NCBI GenBank assembly: GCA_016839605.1
Contig: JAEOTX010000100.1
Span: 1 to 49,224 of the forward strand
Source: Candidatus Thorarchaeota archaeon
Lineage (GTDB): Archaea > Asgardarchaeota > Thorarchaeia > Thorarchaeales > Thorarchaeaceae
Length of the DNA stretch: 49,224 nt
Direction of reading: 5' to 3'
The translations under genes were made by a program, and so were the position numbers. Each line of letters opens with the position of its first letter. Position 1 is the stretch's first letter. The notes under the pieces are model-generated. The model was given only the letters and a program-made list of their open reading frames with translations. It was not told where the DNA came from and did not search any database. Below, in pieces: positions 17,855-47,635 of the stretch.

Positions 17855-19645
17855 CTAATCTGAGGTCACTTGTGGTTCACGACGCTCGTATTCACCAGCA
17901 TCTTCGCCAGCCTGAACGCCAACATTGATTCTCTTCTTGTCACCAGGATTCATTCTAGCCCATGACCAGACAAGATTAGTACCATCGTCAACAGGCTTCT
18001 CCATAGGGGCTTCCTCGACGGGATCCGTGGATACATATTCGAAGCCGGCTGGTATCCAGTCAGTCACTTCGACGTTCTCCACAGTCACTTCGCCTTTGTT
18101 CTCAATTACGAGTACAACCATAAATTGACCCGGATCAGATCCCTTGTTGATGCCTTTCTTGGTCGAGATGCTTCTCTTCTTATAGAGAATGCCAATTTTA
18201 TGACCATCCTCTGCACTCGCAGACTCTGCTGCAAGTCCTTCAGGATAGGTGTGTGCTTCACAGCAAATGGGAGATGGATATTCCTTCTCAGGTCTGTTCC
18301 TCCATGCCATTATTGCATAGTTGATTTTAACTGTCTCACCAGGCTCAACCTCGCCCACTGAGTCCTTGAGATTCAGGATCTTGAAGGTCATCTTATGTGG
18401 TACTTCGGGATTCTGGTCCTCTGGGTCTATGGCTACTTCGAGCTCGCCGCTGTATTCCCTTCCTTTAACCCAGGCAGTAACATGCTCAGGTTTTGGGGGC
18501 ATCACATCGTCTGGCAAGCTGTCCTCAACCGTGAACGAGTTGAGGCGGGCTGATCCCACATTCTTGACCTCGATTGTTACCTCCACCGGAGTCTTGTCGA
18601 AACTACCGACCTCTGGAGGATCGAACTCCTTAGTGTAGTCTATGCGTGCAACAGGTAGTTTCTGAGGCGTTTTCTCAATGGTGCCCAAGACGCGCTTTGC
18701 AATGACTCTCATTGGAGTGTAGACCACTTCTTGGTTGCATTTAGGAGGCGACTTGCTACCTATTTCGAATTTCGAGCTCCACTCTTGGTTTGGAAACATC
18801 TCCATTCTAGGCGCATCATCAATCATTTTCTGTTTCTCTCCATCATCCTCAGGTGTAAGATAGACTTCTGCTTTGTCTAGCCGAACCATTAGGTCGCTCT
18901 CATTTGAACACTCCAAGATGCATTCCCATTGATTAGGTTCTGTTTCAGCTGTTTCTATGCCAGTTAGGAACTCGGTCAGTGCGGTCATATCAGGAGTAAG
19001 GCCAGACCTTTGCTGGTCCTCACCTCGGTAAGTGACCACTATTTCGCCAGCGCTCCTGCTGTCAGTGTCTTCAACATTTCCAGTTGCTGATATAACAAGT
19101 GTCGATTCCTCTCTTGGATATACGACAAAGTCCTTCCAGATGATAGTCCTTGTCCCCTCATCGAACTCTGTAGCCCCTGAGCTCGTGGATTCAACGTTCA
19201 TCATTGTGAGCTCTGGTGGAATGGTCTTGTTGAGTACGATGTTGTCAAGCTGACCATCTGTTTCATTCTTCACTTTGATTGTGATTTTTACAGGGTTCTC
19301 CTTTCCGTATACATATGCCCAGTGTGGTTTGTCAGTTGGAACTGTGCCACAAGTATCAAATCTCTCTGTGAGAGTAAGAATCGGCTTTCTGATGTCGACC
19401 TTATAATCAGTTTCCCACTTCGCACCAGCATCAATCTCGCCGGCAGATAGGGTGTCTTCAGAGAAGCTTGTACCCCCAGCGCTTTCTTCAAGCAACACGC
19501 GGACATTCCAGATGCGTGATCTATCTGAAACATTATTTACGGATAGGATCCCTCTAGCCTCGGCGCTCTTTAGACCACTTAGCTCGCCGATGGCTGCTTT
19601 TTCGGTTTCCTCTAAGTCGATTACGACAGTTTTTCGTTCACTCAA
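17855..19645 (-). CDS. Multi-domain beta-sandwich (DUF11/CARDB-like) protein without signal peptide or TM segment
   Basis: 596 aa; repeated modules such as PVKITIKVKNETDGQLDNIVLNKTIPPELTMMNVES, PVEVTIEVKNVGSARLNSFTVEDSLPDDV, VVLVIENKGEVTVENVEVTDWIPAGFEYVS. Confidence 0.75.
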   Translation of the reverse strand: MSERKTVVIDLEETEKAAIGELSGLKSAEARGILSVNNVSDRSRIWNVRVLLEESAGGTSFSEDTLSAGEIDAGAKWETDYKVDIRKPILTLTERFDTCGTVPTDKPHWAYVYGKENPVKITIKVKNETDGQLDNIVLNKTIPPELTMMNVESTSSGATEFDEGTRTIIWKDFVVYPREESTLVISATGNVEDTDSRSAGEIVVTYRGEDQQRSGLTPDMTALTEFLTGIETAETEPNQWECILECSNESDLMVRLDKAEVYLTPEDDGEKQKMIDDAPRMEMFPNQEWSSKFEIGSKSPPKCNQEVVYTPMRVIAKRVLGTIEKTPQKLPVARIDYTKEFDPPEVGSFDKTPVEVTIEVKNVGSARLNSFTVEDSLPDDVMPPKPEHVTAWVKGREYSGELEVAIDPEDQNPEVPHKMTFKILNLKDSVGEVEPGETVKINYAIMAWRNRPEKEYPSPICCEAHTYPEGLAAESASAEDGHKIGILYKKRSISTKKGINKGSDPGQFMVVLVIENKGEVTVENVEVTDWIPAGFEYVSTDPVEEAPMEKPVDDGTNLVWSWARMNPGDKKRINVGVQAGEDAGEYERREPQVTSD

Positions 19646-28866: not shown

Positions 28867-30363
28867 ATGGATGTTCCGAATGTAACACGGAGTGCTCTTG
28901 TAGCAAATCTCAAGAAACATCGCTTGTTCATCATTGTACTTCTATTAGCTGCAATAGTCTGGACATGGGTGTTTATTCAGTCGGCAATAGATTTCGTAAC
29001 TAGCACAAGTTGGCCTAGAGCTGTCTGGAACGGTTATGGGTCCATCAATCTTTTCGGCTTCCCCATTAGATTCGCATACGAGGGCTGGGCTGATCATGAC
29101 TATTTCTATCACAGCTGGGCCAATCAGTTTCTTAGTGGTCTTCTGCCGTATACGCCAGAATTTGACCTCTTATTTCAGAATGAAGCTTACTATAATGTAC
29201 CATACTTCTTCCCGCCTCTCTATCTCTATGCTTGCGTCATTGGCAAGTTGCTTCATTCAGACCTAGGCATAGGTCTAGTTCTCACTGTATTTGGTTTCAT
29301 TACAGCGTTCCCAATCTACGGCATTTCCACCTATCTCTCTGGGAATAGAAATGTGGGAGCCGTTGCAGCTGCAACCTATTTATTCAGCCCCATAATACTC
29401 TATCATACCGTCTTCGAGTGGTTGAACCCTGCTCCGTTTGTCTTTTTCTCAATGCTCTCCTTCTACCTTCTAATGCACAACCGAAGACTCTCCGGAGTTC
29501 TCGCTATGACAACAGCCGCTCTTTTCAAGCAGACCGCCTTCTTCTTTGCTCTACCCCTAATTGCATTCGTATTGAAACGCGCCCCGCAGCCTATTTCCGA
29601 CGAAGAAACACCCCCAGAAGAAGAGGAACAAAATAAGCGGCCGGCGAGTGATGAACTAGATTTGAAAGGATTCGCGAAAATAGCACTTGTTGTATGTGGA
29701 TATGCCGCTGTCCTCTCTTTGCCTTACATTCTGGACCCTTTCAACTATGGAAATGCGATTTTCTCAAGAGCAGGCGGGACCTATCTGACCGATCTGACAT
29801 CGCCGCCACCCATCAGCTTTCCTATAACCCTCGCTGTTCTCTTCATCATGATTGGTGCTCCTGAATGGGTTTCTGAACTTGTCAATCTGACGACTTTTTA
29901 CTCAATAGGAATTATCATTGCTATTGTTCCGCTATTAGCTTTGATGCTGCTGGAGGTGAAGAAAGACCAGGATCTTCAGGCATACTGGCGGAGAATCATT
30001 TTCTTGACTTTGCTCTTGATGCTCTGCGTCCACATATTATCGCCACGTGGAATTTACAAATACTACACTGTTGCACTAGTACCATTCTTCTCAATTCTAT
30101 CAACATCTAGTCTCTGCCAGAGGACCTCTGAAAACGTTCGTGTATCTTTTCCCATGCTACTTGTTCCGATGGTTTGCAGTTTCGCAATAATGATTCCTGC
30201 AAGAACTACCTACCTGCTTTACCTAATCTTGATACTTGCTGGATATATTCTGCATAAAGCATTCTCATATACATATGAATTGGGAGCAGGACCAGCCAGA
30301 AAATTAGGCCAGCGGCTGATGGCCTCGGTACGTGGAGATTCGTCGCTGAAGGTTACTGAATGA
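28867..30363 (+). CDS. Multi-pass membrane protein, GT-C glycosyltransferase-like (paralog B)
   Basis: 498 aa; collinear motifs with the upstream gene (FPPLYLYACVIGKL, WLNPAPFVFFSMLSFYLL, AALFKQTAFFFALPL, SPRGIYKYYTVALVPFFSILST). Confidence 0.75.
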   Translation: MDVPNVTRSALVANLKKHRLFIIVLLLAAIVWTWVFIQSAIDFVTSTSWPRAVWNGYGSINLFGFPIRFAYEGWADHDYFYHSWANQFLSGLLPYTPEFDLLFQNEAYYNVPYFFPPLYLYACVIGKLLHSDLGIGLVLTVFGFITAFPIYGISTYLSGNRNVGAVAAATYLFSPIILYHTVFEWLNPAPFVFFSMLSFYLLMHNRRLSGVLAMTTAALFKQTAFFFALPLIAFVLKRAPQPISDEETPPEEEEQNKRPASDELDLKGFAKIALVVCGYAAVLSLPYILDPFNYGNAIFSRAGGTYLTDLTSPPPISFPITLAVLFIMIGAPEWVSELVNLTTFYSIGIIIAIVPLLALMLLEVKKDQDLQAYWRRIIFLTLLLMLCVHILSPRGIYKYYTVALVPFFSILSTSSLCQRTSENVRVSFPMLLVPMVCSFAIMIPARTTYLLYLILILAGYILHKAFSYTYELGAGPARKLGQRLMASVRGDSSLKVTE

Positions 30364-31603
30364 GCTTCTCCAGCTCTTTCTTCTTCTTCTCCAGATTCTT
30401 ATTCAGCGTCTTCAGACGTGTATCTAGCTTCTCAACTTGCTCAGTGTAGGTGTCTTTAGGCATCGCACCGGACGAGTGTCTTTCTTCAATGTGGTCCCGC
30501 AGCTGTTGGACCGACTTGATCTCTTTCTCCAATGCCTTTGCGTCTGCTTCAATTTCTGCTGCCTGATTTTCTTCATCAGTCTGGAATTGCCTTGATGGAA
30601 TCATGACGCCAAGCTGTGACTGTGTTTTTTCTGCAAAGTCCTGAAATTGATCACGAAGCATCTCAATGTTTTTGTCCACGTTGGCTAACTTCTTGTCCAA
30701 TTTGCCGATGTCTTTCTGTAGGTCGAAAACAGCATTGACTAGTCTACGCATTGTCTTCTCCATCTCGGCGCTAGCTTCTACAGAAGCCTTTAGCTGTTTC
30801 TTTTCTTCCTTCTTCTCTTGGTCCTTTACAACCTCACTTGGCTTAGCAGTCCTTATCTCTCCGCTCAGCCATTTGATGGCATTTACTGCGAACGCTTGGT
30901 TGCCCTTATGCTTCATTCCCCCGCCTTTGCGAAATACCTCGTAGCTACCAACACAGAGTACACGTCCCTTGCCTGCCTCTGCAATCGCAATAACTGGCTT
31001 ATTCGGTGGGTCTGCCGTGTCTGATGTACTCGCTATTGTTGTTGCCTTAGTGGTCACATTGAGAGTACACCCAGAAGGAACAAGTATGTCTTGTACATCC
31101 TCCGTGACGGGATGAACTACCACGTTGGTGATGATAGGCATTGTCGGAAGGCCTGCATTGTTTCTCTCGTCTCGTACAGCTGTGTTCTCGAAGCTAATTC
31201 CAAAACCTTTCGACACTTGGCTCAAGTTATTCATCAGACCACGGTCTCCCCCCGACAGTGAGAGCAGCATCAGACCGCCTCCTTTCTTTACGTATCGCTT
31301 CAGAATATCAATCTCAGCTGGTCGCAGTTTTGAGCTGTTAGGACAACCGAAAACTATGGCATCTGCCCTTTCCAGATTCTTTGCGAGTATCATGTACTCA
31401 GTGTAGGGCTCGACATCGAAGTCATTGTCCTGCAAAATCTTAGCGAGTTGCGAATATGTCGTGTCGAGTCGGCCACGTTCATTTTGGGTCTGGTCAAAGA
31501 GAATGAGCTTCCTTCTTCCGCTCAATGGTATATCCCCCTGTCTAGAGGTAGTAGGATGAGATGGTGAAAGAGAACTAATGAGAGTTGTGTAGGTGTTATC
31601 CAT
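30353..31603 (-). CDS. GIFT-domain (IFT52/GldG-like) protein with C-terminal coiled coil
   Basis: 416 aa; ADAIVFGCPNSSKLRPAEIDILKRYVKKGGGLMLLSLSGGDRGLMNNLSQVSKGFGISFENTAVRD ... GCTLNVTTKATTIASTSDTADPPNKPVIAIAEAGKGRVLCVGSYEVFRKGG ... NAIKWLSGEI. No TM segment apparent. Confidence 0.65.
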   Translation of the reverse strand: MDNTYTTLISSLSPSHPTTSRQGDIPLSGRRKLILFDQTQNERGRLDTTYSQLAKILQDNDFDVEPYTEYMILAKNLERADAIVFGCPNSSKLRPAEIDILKRYVKKGGGLMLLSLSGGDRGLMNNLSQVSKGFGISFENTAVRDERNNAGLPTMPIITNVVVHPVTEDVQDILVPSGCTLNVTTKATTIASTSDTADPPNKPVIAIAEAGKGRVLCVGSYEVFRKGGGMKHKGNQAFAVNAIKWLSGEIRTAKPSEVVKDQEKKEEKKQLKASVEASAEMEKTMRRLVNAVFDLQKDIGKLDKKLANVDKNIEMLRDQFQDFAEKTQSQLGVMIPSRQFQTDEENQAAEIEADAKALEKEIKSVQQLRDHIEERHSSGAMPKDTYTEQVEKLDTRLKTLNKNLEKKKKELEKLIQ

Positions 31604-42673: not shown

Positions 42674-44032
42674 ATGGACTTCTATAGCGATGCAGGTGTC
42701 GAGCCAATCGGCGAAGGAATCCGAACTCACTTCAGCAGTGAGATTACTGCGGAGATTGCAGGCACTGATGTCATCATAATGGGCTGGGTCCACATTCTGC
42801 GTGACAAGGGGAAGATAAAGTTCCTCGTTCTCCGAGATGAACAAGGTCAGTGCCAAGTTACTATTCCTCAAGCCAAGGTCTCTGAGGAAGTCTTCGAGGT
42901 TTCTGGACAACTAAAGCCAGAGTATGCTGTGGCTGTTAAGGGCAAAGTTGTAGCTGCTAAGCAAGTCGCCTCTGGTGCTGAGATAATTCCTACTCAGATT
43001 CGAATAATCAATACTGCTCAGCGTCTTCCCATCGATGTTGTCGAGGGTAAGGTGGACATTGATTTGGATACTCGTCTAAATCACAGAGTTCTTGATCTTC
43101 GTAAGCCGTCCATCAATGCCATCTTTCGAATCCAACACTCTCTAGTAAGATTCGCACGCGAGTATCTAGAGTCAAATGGATTTGTGGAGATTCACACTCC
43201 CAAGATCGTAGCTGAGGCCACAGAGGGTGGGGCAAATCTGTTTGAAATCAAGTACTTCGATAAGAAGGCCTACCTGGCTCAGAGTCCACAATTCTACAAG
43301 CAGTTGATGATTCTTGCAGGGTTTGGTAGGGTCTTTGAGATTGCTCCAGTCTTCAGAGCTGAGAAACACAACACCAGACGGCATGTCAACGAATATACGT
43401 CGTTTGACTACGAGATGGCATGGATATCGAGTGTGGATGATGTAATGAAGATGGAAGAACAAATGCTCGTCCATGCATTTCAGAAGACCTCGGAAGTAGC
43501 AGCAAATGAACTAGAGGTGCTTGGTGTTGAGCTAATAGTTCCCAAATTACCCTTCAAGAGAATCAAGTACGACAAGGCCATTGACCTGCTTAACAGTGAA
43601 GGGAAGGAGCTAGCCATCACTGACGACATTGACCCTGAGGCTGAGCGTCTTCTCGGGACGATATTCCCTGAGAAATTCGGAACAGACATGGTCTTTCTCA
43701 CACACTATCCATTAGAGCTGAGACCAGCTTACACTATGCCCAGCATGACTGACGAAGGAATGACTGAGAGCTTCGATTTGACATACAAGGGCATGGAGAT
43801 CACAACTGGTAGTCAGAGAATACATCTCTATGACCTTCTGGTTGAGAGGTTCAAAGCAAAGGGATTCAACCCAAACCACTTTGCGTTCTATCTTGATCCT
43901 TTCAAGTATGGCGCACCGCCTCATGGCGGTCTAGGCTTAGGAGTGGAACGATTAACAATGCAACTACTAGGTATTGAGAATGTCCGAGAGGCTACACTCC
44001 TTCCTCGGGACAGAGACCGAATAACACCATAA
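42674..44032 (+). CDS. aspS: Aspartyl-tRNA synthetase (archaeal/eukaryotic type)
   Basis: 452 aa; VIIMGWVHILRDKGKIKFLVLRDEQG, LAQSPQFYKQLMILAGFGRVFEIAPVFRAE, FDYEMAW, GGLGLGVERLTMQLLGIENVREATLLPRDRDRITP. Confidence 0.95.
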   Translation: MDFYSDAGVEPIGEGIRTHFSSEITAEIAGTDVIIMGWVHILRDKGKIKFLVLRDEQGQCQVTIPQAKVSEEVFEVSGQLKPEYAVAVKGKVVAAKQVASGAEIIPTQIRIINTAQRLPIDVVEGKVDIDLDTRLNHRVLDLRKPSINAIFRIQHSLVRFAREYLESNGFVEIHTPKIVAEATEGGANLFEIKYFDKKAYLAQSPQFYKQLMILAGFGRVFEIAPVFRAEKHNTRRHVNEYTSFDYEMAWISSVDDVMKMEEQMLVHAFQKTSEVAANELEVLGVELIVPKLPFKRIKYDKAIDLLNSEGKELAITDDIDPEAERLLGTIFPEKFGTDMVFLTHYPLELRPAYTMPSMTDEGMTESFDLTYKGMEITTGSQRIHLYDLLVERFKAKGFNPNHFAFYLDPFKYGAPPHGGLGLGVERLTMQLLGIENVREATLLPRDRDRITP

Positions 44033-44114
44033 TAATGGTGAGCCAATAATACTCTCTCTTATAGTAGCAATCGACTATTCTCAAGTCGCAGTCCAGTCTG
44101 GGCTATACACTTGT

Positions 44115-44888
44115 ATGAAGGTCTCTGTGATGCAAGAACGTCTTCAATCTGAACTCTTTGCCTCAATAGCCACACTTGACCAACTGAAGAAGATGTTCGA
44201 TATGGGAATTGTCGACATTGGGTCATATCAGAGGGAGTCTGAAGCATTGGCGAGTGAAGTCAAGGCTAACATCGCGGACTTGAAGCGAATCGGTCTCGAT
44301 TTTGGTACTTTCATTCAGACTGAACGTGTAGCAGAGCGGTTTCCTGATGCTGTTATGCTTCTTGATCTCTCCCGACGTGAAAATCGCTTCCGCGGCGACA
44401 ATATGACTATGGACGAATACTATGACCACATTGGCCTTGCGATTCTTGATGTGGCAACAGCACATGCCTCAAAGGGTCTCATGGGCTTAGCCGAGCTCAT
44501 TGTAGAAGTTGTGAAGCGCATGCCTGAGCTAAAGGCTATCAGTTATAGCGACGTGATTGAGGCGGTCAATCGTGTAGCTGAACATGGGCTTATTCCTGGA
44601 ATTCGAACGCTTCGCGGGGGTGTGAAAGTTGTCGAGCTCCGCCCACTCGAGCTTAGAAGGGACCAAGCGGATGTGGTCAATCTTGCAGCATCAAAGGGAT
44701 ATGTTTCCGTAGAGGAAGTAATGATGCTCATGAAGTGGTCCGAGGATCATGCACGACAAGTGCTCTCTAGTCTAGTAGATGCTGGAATGGCTGTGGCGGA
44801 TATTCGATTCTCCACAGGCGGAAGGTATTACTTCCCAGGTCTACGCGCCAGAGAAAGCAGCGATGGTAGGGCTACGCCCTCTCGTTAG
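44115..44888 (+). CDS. ESCRT-II EAP30-domain protein (Vps22/Vps36-like)
   Basis: 257 aa; FATFI-like LDFGTFIQTE, MTMDEYYDHIGLAILDVATAHASKGLMGLAELIVEVVKRM, then tandem winged-helix-like segments. Confidence 0.82.
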   Translation: MKVSVMQERLQSELFASIATLDQLKKMFDMGIVDIGSYQRESEALASEVKANIADLKRIGLDFGTFIQTERVAERFPDAVMLLDLSRRENRFRGDNMTMDEYYDHIGLAILDVATAHASKGLMGLAELIVEVVKRMPELKAISYSDVIEAVNRVAEHGLIPGIRTLRGGVKVVELRPLELRRDQADVVNLAASKGYVSVEEVMMLMKWSEDHARQVLSSLVDAGMAVADIRFSTGGRYYFPGLRARESSDGRATPSR

Positions 44889-45619
44889 ACGATAATCTTA
44901 ATCGCACCTTTCTTCTTATCCACCCAACTAGCAAGACCCTTTTCTACCATGATAAGAAGAACCCGGTGAAGGTCTTTTTCTGGAAGTTTCGCGAAGCTGT
45001 AGTCCTCTTCCTGAATCACGATTGACTTCACGTCTAGTCTCTGCTTTCCTGACTTCAATGCCCAATCATAGATGATGTCGACCCAATCCTCTAGGAATCT
45101 CCAGTAGACTCGTAATTGCCTTCGGTTCCTGTCCAACCACTCTGCAATCTCTTTCTGTACAAGCACCCCACAAATCAACTTGAATGAGTCGACCTTGTTT
45201 GTGATATCATTGAATGGGGGCTCTTTGATGAAGGCGGTTACTGATAAGACGTGAACATCCCGAGCTTCCATCCAACGAAGGACAAAATCTGACCACTCCT
45301 CGGCCCACATATCCCTATCTTCTTCGCGAGGAGGTATGCCGTACATCCACTCTGTCTGTCTGAGGTCTCCCCAAGGGGGCATCAGAATGACTTCTTCTGG
45401 CTCAACTAAAGCTTCCTCAATCTTGACCGCTACATCCTCAGTTTCCTCAACGGTTGTCGTTTCCTTATGCTTTACTACTACCTCTGGCTTATGGGTTGAT
45501 TCAACTTCCGCTTCGTTTTCCTTAACTGGAGTAGGTTCTTCCACCTTGGATTCTGTTTCTGTGGTTTCAGGGGCAGATTTGGTCTTCTCTTTCTCTCTGC
45601 GCCGTTCTCTGACCCCCAC
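44885..45619 (-). CDS. ESCRT-II Vps25-like protein with charged disordered N-terminal extension
   Basis: 244 aa; MPPWGDLRQTEWM, EEWSDFVLRWMEARDVHVLSVTAFIKEPPFNDI, IAEWLDRNRRQLRVYWRFLEDWVDIIYDWALKSGKQ, second winged helix at C-terminus. Confidence 0.8.
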   Translation of the reverse strand: MGVRERRREKEKTKSAPETTETESKVEEPTPVKENEAEVESTHKPEVVVKHKETTTVEETEDVAVKIEEALVEPEEVILMPPWGDLRQTEWMYGIPPREEDRDMWAEEWSDFVLRWMEARDVHVLSVTAFIKEPPFNDITNKVDSFKLICGVLVQKEIAEWLDRNRRQLRVYWRFLEDWVDIIYDWALKSGKQRLDVKSIVIQEEDYSFAKLPEKDLHRVLLIMVEKGLASWVDKKKGAIKIIV

Positions 45620-45622
45620 TCC

Positions 45623-46840
45623 CTAGGACCCCTCCGCCCAATCGATATACCTCTTCACATCCTCTGGAGCTGTTGCAGGCCTGATATTCTCAATGGCTTG
45701 CAGCAAGTCTTCTCTTGATACTGGTCGAACATCTAGAATCTCTTCCTCTTCATCCATTCTTCCAGTCCGTTGTAAGTCCCTGATAGGCTCCATAGCTGCC
45801 TCTCTGCAGACGACACTTATGTCGCGTCCACTGTAGCCCTCACTGAGGTCTGCAAGCTCCTCATAGTCTACATCGGGGGCAACCTCGATGTCTTCCATGT
45901 GTATCTCAAAGATTTTCTTCCTTGCAGGTCTGTCTGGTAGTGGCACGTGGATCTTCTTCTCAAATCTGGACCGAAGTGCAAAGTCCAACTCCCATGGGAG
46001 ATTGGTCGCACCAATCACCGTGACTCTGTCTTCCAAATCACTCGCGAGTCCCTGTAGTTCGGTGAGGAGCTGAGTCTTTAGTCTTCTTTCTCCTCCCACA
46101 TCATCGCCAGACCTAGAAACTCCTACAGAATCAAGTTCATCCATGAAGACTATAGCAGGTTGATTTCGTCTGGCCAAGGTGAAGAGATTCATGACCAGCT
46201 TCTCAGACTCTCCAAGCCACTTGCTTACAATGTTGCCAGCAGACACATTGAAGAACGTGGCATTCACTTCTGCCGCGACTGCCTTTGCAATCAAGGTCTT
46301 TCCGCAGCCTGCAGGTCCGTAGAACAGTATCCCCCTCCAAGGTTGACGGGACTTTCCTTTGAAGAGCTCTGGGTGCTTCATCGGTGCCACAATTGCGTCA
46401 TGAATTGCCTGCTTTGCATCTTCCAAGCCTGCAACATCACTCATCTTGACACTGGGTTTCTCAGTAATGATTGTATCAGCTATCATCTCCTGAAGTCTTC
46501 GTGTGTCTTCATCCACCTCTGCTTCGGCTTCTGCTGTCTTCTCCATTGCGGGTTCTGACTCCGCACTTGGGCTGAAGACAGGTGGTGTTGTCAGTCCCTC
46601 TGGAGGTCCTCTAGCCTTCTTCTTAATTCCAGAGATGTAGCGAACTCTGTCAACGCATTCCTGTGCCCTGTCAAGATAGTGTTTCTGGACTGAGGGCAGA
46701 GATGCGGCATTTGACAGTTTGATCAGAATCTTGCTTGCTTTCAGATAATACTGAGCAGCTTCTTTCTTCATTCCTCTCTGATCCAATTCTATGGCCTTAT
46801 CTAGGAGATTTCTCAGGCCTTGGTCTACTCTATCAGACAT
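45623..46840 (-). CDS. Vps4/CdvC-like MIT + AAA ATPase
   Basis: 405 aa; MIT-like N-terminus (AIELDQRGMKKEAAQYYLKASKILIKL), VKMSDVAGLEDAKQAIHDAIVAPMKHPELF, YGPAGCGKTLIAKAVAAE, IVFMDELDSV, Vps4-type C-terminus. Confidence 0.95.
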   Translation of the reverse strand: MSDRVDQGLRNLLDKAIELDQRGMKKEAAQYYLKASKILIKLSNAASLPSVQKHYLDRAQECVDRVRYISGIKKKARGPPEGLTTPPVFSPSAESEPAMEKTAEAEAEVDEDTRRLQEMIADTIITEKPSVKMSDVAGLEDAKQAIHDAIVAPMKHPELFKGKSRQPWRGILFYGPAGCGKTLIAKAVAAEVNATFFNVSAGNIVSKWLGESEKLVMNLFTLARRNQPAIVFMDELDSVGVSRSGDDVGGERRLKTQLLTELQGLASDLEDRVTVIGATNLPWELDFALRSRFEKKIHVPLPDRPARKKIFEIHMEDIEVAPDVDYEELADLSEGYSGRDISVVCREAAMEPIRDLQRTGRMDEEEEILDVRPVSREDLLQAIENIRPATAPEDVKRYIDWAEGS

Positions 46841-46981
46841 CCCGATTCAGGTCTAACTGGAACCTGTGATGATAATAAGTTCTGTGTGACCTATCACTAT
46901 ACGCTCTTAACACCGAGATTCCTAGATTATGAATAAGGAAGGCCGCACCTTGTTCTACGAAGGTTTAAACGTTGAGCAATC

Positions 46982-47635
46982 ATGCTAGTCTTGCAGGGCG
47001 AAGTCCCTGACGAAGTGGTGAGGCCGTTGGATTCACTTAGAAAGGCATTCAAATGGGGTCGGAAGAAACCCGACATTGGAGAGGTTTCCAGCCAACTCAG
47101 AATTCTAACCAAACAGCTTGCTCGTGAGAGAAACAAGCTAGAGAAGGAAGAGCGGGACACAAGAGCTCGCGCCATAAAGGCTCGCAAGGCTGGACAGACG
47201 GATGCCTTCAAGACTTACGCCACTGAAATGGTGCGCTTCCGAAGATACGCTCTTTCAACAGACAAAGCACGTCTTCAAATCCTCAAGATATTGGCTCATC
47301 TCAATCGCGCGCAGACTTCGGCAAGAACCGGCCGCGCACTTGAGCAAGTTGCAAAGATACTAGGAATGCTGGGTGACACAAGCGATACCCGGAAACTGGT
47401 GGAAAATGTTGATGAAATCACTCGCCGCCTAGATGAGTTTGAGATTGAAAGTGAAATATCTGCAGATGCACTTGATGCAAGTATGGAAGTAAGCTCAGAT
47501 GACCTGACCGCTGCTATGCAGGAAATTGACGTGGAGGTCGGACTGGCTGATGCAACTGTGGCTGCTAAGCCTGCTTCTGAATCAGACACCCTTGAGAAAG
47601 ACATCAAGGATCTGGAGCGCGAACTGGGTATCTAG
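46982..47635 (+). CDS. ESCRT-III (Snf7-domain) protein, Vps2/24/46-like
   Basis: 217 aa; basic N-terminal helices (LRKAFKWGRKK, LRILTKQLARERNKLEKEERDTRARAIKARKAGQTDAFKTYATEMVRFRRYAL), acidic C-terminal half ending in DTLEKDIKDLERELGI. Confidence 0.88.
   Translation: MLVLQGEVPDEVVRPLDSLRKAFKWGRKKPDIGEVSSQLRILTKQLARERNKLEKEERDTRARAIKARKAGQTDAFKTYATEMVRFRRYALSTDKARLQILKILAHLNRAQTSARTGRALEQVAKILGMLGDTSDTRKLVENVDEITRRLDEFEIESEISADALDASMEVSSDDLTAAMQEIDVEVGLADATVAAKPASESDTLEKDIKDLERELGI

Follow-up and report, generated by a model that had tools for sequence, protein, structure and literature searches.

A soluble Asgard archaeal protein with an IFT52-like GIFT domain followed, in most classes, by a helical hairpin

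The window (the whole stretch of DNA that was analysed, 49,224 nucleotides, which is an entire contig of a Candidatus Thorarchaeota draft genome) carries on its minus strand an open reading frame at 30353..31603; in the same frame, the plus strand is interrupted by many stops. The reading frame for a GIFT-domain protein is real; all the motifs quoted in the initial annotation are present in the minus-strand translation, and the gene is single-copy in its draft genome. The version described initially starts at an ATG at 31603 and comprises 416 residues. Translation probably starts at TTG 31525, because nearly all the Thor orthologues inspected have a start codon at the matching position, an AGGGGG sequence precedes the TTG, and in a relative with 86% identity (L077) a stop codon interrupts the frame just before the equivalent position. 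The real protein is therefore probably 390 residues long instead of 416. Residue numbers refer throughout to the 416-residue reading, of which residues 1-26 are disordered in the AlphaFold2 model.

The coordinates of the gene, of the parts of its product and of the other genes considered here are collected in Table 1. The product had been described as a soluble protein ending in a single coiled coil of about 170 residues. The first point was borne out: there is no transmembrane segment, the maximum 19-residue hydropathy being 0.99 in the window protein and at most 1.67 in its orthologues. As for the tail, it is indeed helical, but the model shows a long helix and a separate hairpin (arms 343-377 and 383-415, with an SGAM....Y..Q motif at the turn) instead of one continuous coiled coil. 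Beside the GIFT gene, and conserved there in Thor, lie two tandem genes for related membrane proteins; a DUF11 gene is found in the same neighbourhood of the window, as is a counterpart in that of a Sigyn GIFT gene.

Table 1. Positions of the features discussed (window coordinates unless a locus is named)
Feature	Position	Strand	Basis or remark
Probable coding sequence, TTG start, 390 aa, stop codon included in coordinates	30353..31525	-	Open reading frame and start-position conservation
AGGGGG, Shine-Dalgarno-like, 8 bases before TTG	31534..31539	-	Read from sequence
GIFT domain, residues 30-252	30848..31516	-	Pfam IFT52_GIFT; pLDDT mostly >90; Foldseek to 5fms/5fmr/8bd7
Long helix, residues 278-331	30611..30772	-	AlphaFold/DSSP, pLDDT about 65-80
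C-terminal helical hairpin, residues 343-415, VPS28-hairpin-like	30359..30577	-	AlphaFold pLDDT about 92-97; conserved Thor/Jord/Sigyn/Loki
Tandem multi-pass membrane proteins, about 500-550 aa	27211-28860, 28867-30360	+	No Pfam match
DUF11 protein	17858-19645	-	
ESCRT cluster: EAP30/Vps22-36 (+), Vps25-type ESCRT-II (-), MIT-AAA Vps4 (-), Snf7 (+)	44025-47632	+/-	
ARPC4-like gene directly beside GIFT gene, six Jord/Sigyn/Frey/L041 loci	L041:6272-7039, L117:9353-10036, L118:9391-10008		PF05856 about 31 bits, cut-off 22.2
Rag/Arf-like GTPase directly upstream of GIFT gene, Prometheoarchaeum	L126:1156-2307, L155:1980-3098		Gtr1_RagA 79 bits
Sigyn DUF11 counterpart	L117:10983-12776		Weak adaptor-complex medium subunit match
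Subtilisin-type peptidase and GIFT domain fusion, 1244 aa	L174:251-3982	+	43 bits to IFT52_GIFT

Asgard archaea are the closest known prokaryotic relatives of eukaryotes, and IFT52 belongs to the core (IFT-B1) of the machinery by which cilia are built. The homology to the IFT52 GIFT domain suggested initially is backed by family models, a sequence search of the PDB, fold comparison and reverse profile ranking. Indeed, Pfam model PF23355 (IFT52_GIFT) matches the window protein with an E-value of 4e-19 (69.1 bits, cut-off 27.2), well outside what chance would give, and matches 44 out of 44 Asgard orthologues. When the single sequence was searched against all PDB chains with phmmer, the top three matches were IFT52 (1.8e-11, 8e-11 and 4.2e-7), the next one standing at 0.048. 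A profile of the Asgard family retrieved IFT52 from the PDB at 3.7e-25, with an alignment that spans both GIFT halves and leaves the remainder of the 454-aa Chlamydomonas IFT52 chain unmatched; a profile limited to the GIFT domain gave 3.8e-20 for IFT52 and 0.021 for the following match. Structure comparison agreed: in a Foldseek search of the PDB with the AlphaFold2 model (44 Asgard sequences, mean pLDDT 84, GIFT domain confident), ranks 1-6 were all IFT52 (E from 1e-17 to 4e-10), with TM-scores by target length of 0.79-0.90 for isolated IFT52 N-terminal domains, and were followed by GH42-associated and ThuA-like proteins (E about 1e-8). As no GldG structure is among the PDB matches listed, Foldseek cannot tell IFT52 and GldG apart here, which the sequence models can.

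For the reverse ranking we used an IFT52 profile made of two sequences, reduced to the stretches aligned to the Asgard family and biased towards the shared region; it placed Asgard orthologues at the top, with 82 bits to L042, from a Heimdall-type lineage, 57.6 to the window protein and 41.8 to the best other archaeal protein, as against 24.5 for an actinobacterial protein, 15.4 for GldG and at most 11.1 for haloarchaeal DUF4350 proteins. With PF23355, L042 scores 100 bits. Of the known families compared, eukaryotic IFT52 has the GIFT domain closest to that of the Asgard protein, and the protein very probably belongs to the IFT52-like GIFT group.

The other GIFT-like families are further away. 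The window protein scores 23.1 bits with ABC_transp_aux (PF09822; cut-off 34.7), 26.5 with ThuA (cut-off 33.4) and below the cut-off with DUF4350 (PF14258), and it neither falls into an unrelated family such as ThuA nor groups only with GldG, the two outcomes that would have counted against the initial annotation. ThuA, GATase1-like and GH42-associated domains share the overall flavodoxin-like fold, but the TM-score by target is about 0.6 for ThuA-like proteins, compared with 0.8-0.9 for IFT52, and the sequence match is sub-threshold. The GldG/ABC_transp_aux and DUF4350 proteins have in common with the Asgard orthologues the superfamily fold, the GG at 108-109, P88, E97 and often D37 and D145; the examples read are membrane-linked or lie beside ABC or MoxR genes. 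OST48/WBP1 (PF03345) shows a weak N-domain likeness: OST48_N reaches 25.4 bits in the Heimdall protein L127, which has 51 bits with IFT52_GIFT, and 19.5 in L118 (cut-off 36). A GldG-like identity was rejected on account of scores, the lack of a transmembrane segment and gene context, and an OST48 or ThuA identity on account of scores. OST48/WBP1 homologues have been reported in Heimdallarchaeia (PMC10307638).

Orthologues are found in Thor, Jord/Frey, Sigyn, Loki, Hel and Heimdall, usually one per genome, and full-length relatives have 53-87% identity within the family of the window protein and about 30% in other Asgard families. The best 80 loci from the GTDB collection are Asgard by name, except two titled 'archaeon' and one (L145) titled Bathyarchaeota; the latter is probably misnamed, because it stands beside Loki and Prometheoarchaeum sequences in trees. 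Of 99 Asgard genomes, 94 have an IFT52_GIFT match over the cut-off, some of these matches being paralogues; the 14 controls have none. None of 80 other archaeal genomes searched with the GIFT profile gave a score comparable to those of the Asgard orthologues (177-342 bits where measured); 17 of them had weaker matches, the best being 77 bits in a frame of about 717 aa. No viral relatives were found, and a tblastn search of plasmids returned weak haloarchaeal DUF4350 matches, a few bacterial matches, one Bradyrhizobium GldG and nothing else. The protein is thus soluble, mostly single-copy and Asgard-wide; behind its GIFT domain, most classes have a linker or helix and then a conserved hairpin.

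This hairpin, with the motif L..hiekrhsSGam.k..Y.eQ..KL, is kept in Thor, Jord, Frey, Sigyn, Loki and Prometheoarchaeum; the Heimdall and Helarchaeota orthologues have other tails, which lack it. The best natural matches of the hairpin profile in the PDB are yeast VPS28 (E=0.035-0.056). With hhalign, the hairpin gave 87.5% against an alignment of Asgard VPS28 over 56 columns without gaps, among them the (S/N)G....Y..Q turn of the VPS28 core hairpin (ESCRT-I), compared with at most 31% for coiled-coil controls (segments of Rad50 and others), at most 39% for segments of Asgard Vps23-like proteins and at most 2.6% for 60 column shuffles. The curated VPS28 model found no match in the tails, one Loki tail reached 19.9 bits with Vps23_core (cut-off 26.8), and its match to CdvA also remained below the cut-off. 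VPS28 differs by its C-terminal domain, which is absent from the Asgard tail, and the PDB-wide E-value is only 0.035. These comparisons support a putative ESCRT-I-like hairpin in the tail, the likeness being moderate, weak in absolute terms and perhaps local; helical hairpins match many folds.

As regards ancestry, the Asgard orthologues form one clade in a first tree (99/98), where IFT52 falls in a larger group with these orthologues and soluble Asgard paralogues (88/91). In a second tree, with more lineages, the group containing IFT52 is split from the outgroup at 91/74; in a tree with more archaeal outgroups, IFT52 has no settled position and the outgroup is not one clade. AU tests rejected none of the placements of IFT52 compared, i.e. 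with the orthologues (p=0.235), with GldG/DUF4350 (0.121) or with the actinobacterial protein (0.458). As IFT52 is represented by just two partial sequences and bacteria, poorly sampled, by another two, the trees do not demonstrate IFT52 ancestry.

IFT52 and the Asgard orthologues are alike in GIFT sequence over both halves and in predicted fold, in the GG(D/E)..N motif, K92 and P199, and in being soluble proteins with the GIFT domain first and a flexible or helical part thereafter. By contrast, residues that vary little or not at all among the Asgard orthologues (D37, R43, D145, C179, Y221 and N241) are changed in IFT52, and most Asgard orthologues have the hairpin tail in place of the C-terminal half of IFT52. 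In IFT52, the C-terminal domain pairs with IFT46 and the central region threads IFT88/IFT70 (PMC10191852). IFT46 is over the cut-off in none of 99 Asgard genomes and the IFT81 CH domain in none of 59, so that an IFT-B complex of the known type is unlikely. Homology of the GIFT domains is supported; a specific evolutionary tie to IFT52 may exist, but the AU tests left every placement tried standing, and the orthologues have no recognisable IFT52 C-terminus. The protein was rightly called a candidate relative of an IFT component; an IFT-like function would be conjecture. It is not an IFT protein by the usual definition.

Among the neighbourhoods compared, we found no partner gene conserved across all Asgard classes. 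In Thor, HIT, PCC-domain and PolB genes lie near the GIFT gene, with PolB two genes off and transcribed from the other strand; altogether, PolB is near in 43 loci (Thor, Jord and L041), and in Jord, Sigyn, Frey and L041 it lies on one side of the GIFT gene with the ARPC4-like gene on the other. About 5 kb from the GIFT gene are E2/E1/RING genes in L117 and a VPS28 gene in L041. In Loki, genes for a GPN-loop GTPase and a nucleotidyltransferase precede the GIFT gene on one strand (the GPN-loop gene is upstream in 23 loci), while in two Prometheoarchaeum loci a few dozen bases separate the end of the Rag/Arf-like GTPase gene from the GIFT gene that follows. In at least 10 Heimdall-type loci, a DNA ligase gene adjoins it on the same strand. 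Three families of neighbouring genes (groups 11, 0 and 118) had no match in Pfam. The window further contains an ESCRT cluster, whose EAP30 protein has a VPS28-type hairpin at its N-terminus (hhalign 98% to Asgard VPS28) and could possibly be an ESCRT-I/ESCRT-II fusion; the ESCRT link is a lead only, because the cluster is 13 kb from the GIFT gene, too far for an operon.

What the protein does can be proposed tentatively. It may act as a cytosolic scaffold or adaptor, a reading that we favour while giving it somewhat less than an even chance: the VPS28-like hairpin would self-assemble or pair with a helical partner, the GIFT domain would use D37, R43, D145, H164, C179, Y221 and N241 to bind a protein or ligand, and the resulting complex would function in membrane remodelling or in a process linked to small GTPases. 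A scaffold is suggested by the lack of a transmembrane segment, by a well-folded hairpin kept between classes, by a likeness to VPS28 above controls and shuffles, and by the lack of a constant enzyme neighbour; the membrane- or GTPase-linked process is suggested by the Rag/Arf-like, GPN-loop, ARPC4-like, E2/E1/RING, VPS28 and ESCRT-II/Vps4/Snf7 genes nearby. Against it stand the lack of a partner in all classes, the PolB and ligase neighbours, the distance of the ESCRT genes, the weakness of the VPS28 likeness and the hairpin-less Heimdall and Helarchaeota proteins.

The main rival, only slightly less probable than the scaffold, stems from the same polar residues, all seven of which (H164 included) are invariant or nearly so in the orthologues and would also fit ligand binding or catalysis: the protein would be GATase/ThuA-like, perhaps acting in sugar or nucleotide-sugar metabolism, with a tail that only oligomerises. 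The next fold family after IFT52 is the GH42-associated and ThuA-like one, GIFT-like OST48 is part of oligosaccharyltransferase and its OST48_N model weakly matches 8 of the 44 orthologues, and the nucleotidyltransferase gene, directly upstream in Loki, is nearby in L045 and Prometheoarchaeum; but it is no neighbour in Thor, Jord or Heimdall loci, no known catalytic motif was recognised, and ThuA scores far below IFT52_GIFT. A role in DNA replication or repair, evoked by the PolB and ligase genes, is improbable given the orientation and distance of PolB in Thor, Loki loci with neither gene, and the fact that no such role is known for IFT52-like GIFT domains. Least probable by far is a GldG-type ABC transporter auxiliary protein that lost its membrane anchor, for although 32 of 44 orthologues give weak ABC_transp_aux matches, the window protein has 23 bits against 69 for IFT52_GIFT and no transmembrane segment, no ABC ATPase or permease was recognised among annotated GIFT neighbours (one plasmid GldG sits beside both), and the GG(D/E)..N motif, carried by nearly all soluble Asgard GIFT proteins, is mostly missing from the far weaker-scoring GldG/DUF4350-like set.

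If the scaffold reading holds, IFT52 would be the eukaryotic relative that lost the invariant polar residues and gained the parts binding IFT88, IFT70 and IFT46. A bolder reading, about as probable as the scaffold, is that the GIFT domain of IFT52 has its direct prokaryotic orthologue in the Asgard protein, vertically inherited from the Asgard ancestor, that the IFT-B core began around an ESCRT- or GTPase-linked cytosolic scaffold, and that the Heimdall-type L042 is the most IFT52-like surviving form.

The Asgard-wide IFT52-like GIFT protein is real and its architecture is new. To our knowledge, the earlier link of IFT52 to prokaryotes was only GldG, via its domain name. In the open literature (subscription papers, preprints and supplementary tables being outside the search), we found no paper that connects Asgard archaea to IFT52 or to the GIFT domain, and no description of the Asgard protein; IFT is not mentioned in the main text of the heimdallarchaeial-ancestry paper (PMC10307638), nor IFT or cilia in a 2026 review (PMC12993045). 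Databases using PF23355 may already label Asgard GIFT proteins. Coat-like (protocoatomer) precursors are often invoked for the origin of IFT (PMC6141808), and IFT52 has been called the cornerstone of IFT-B (PMC10191852). With the Asgard protein, a pre-ciliary relative is at hand that can be expressed, solved structurally and screened for partners; it opens the origin of one IFT-B subunit to direct tests and may reveal what one part of the cilium machine looked like before cilia.

Further soluble GIFT paralogues exist in Loki and other Asgards (L067, L068, L070, L072, L073 and L074). Most are over the IFT52_GIFT cut-off and some have other C-terminal parts, L067 and L068 ending in a ribbon-helix-helix-looking tail; at another locus, a GIFT domain is fused to a subtilisin-type peptidase (Table 1).
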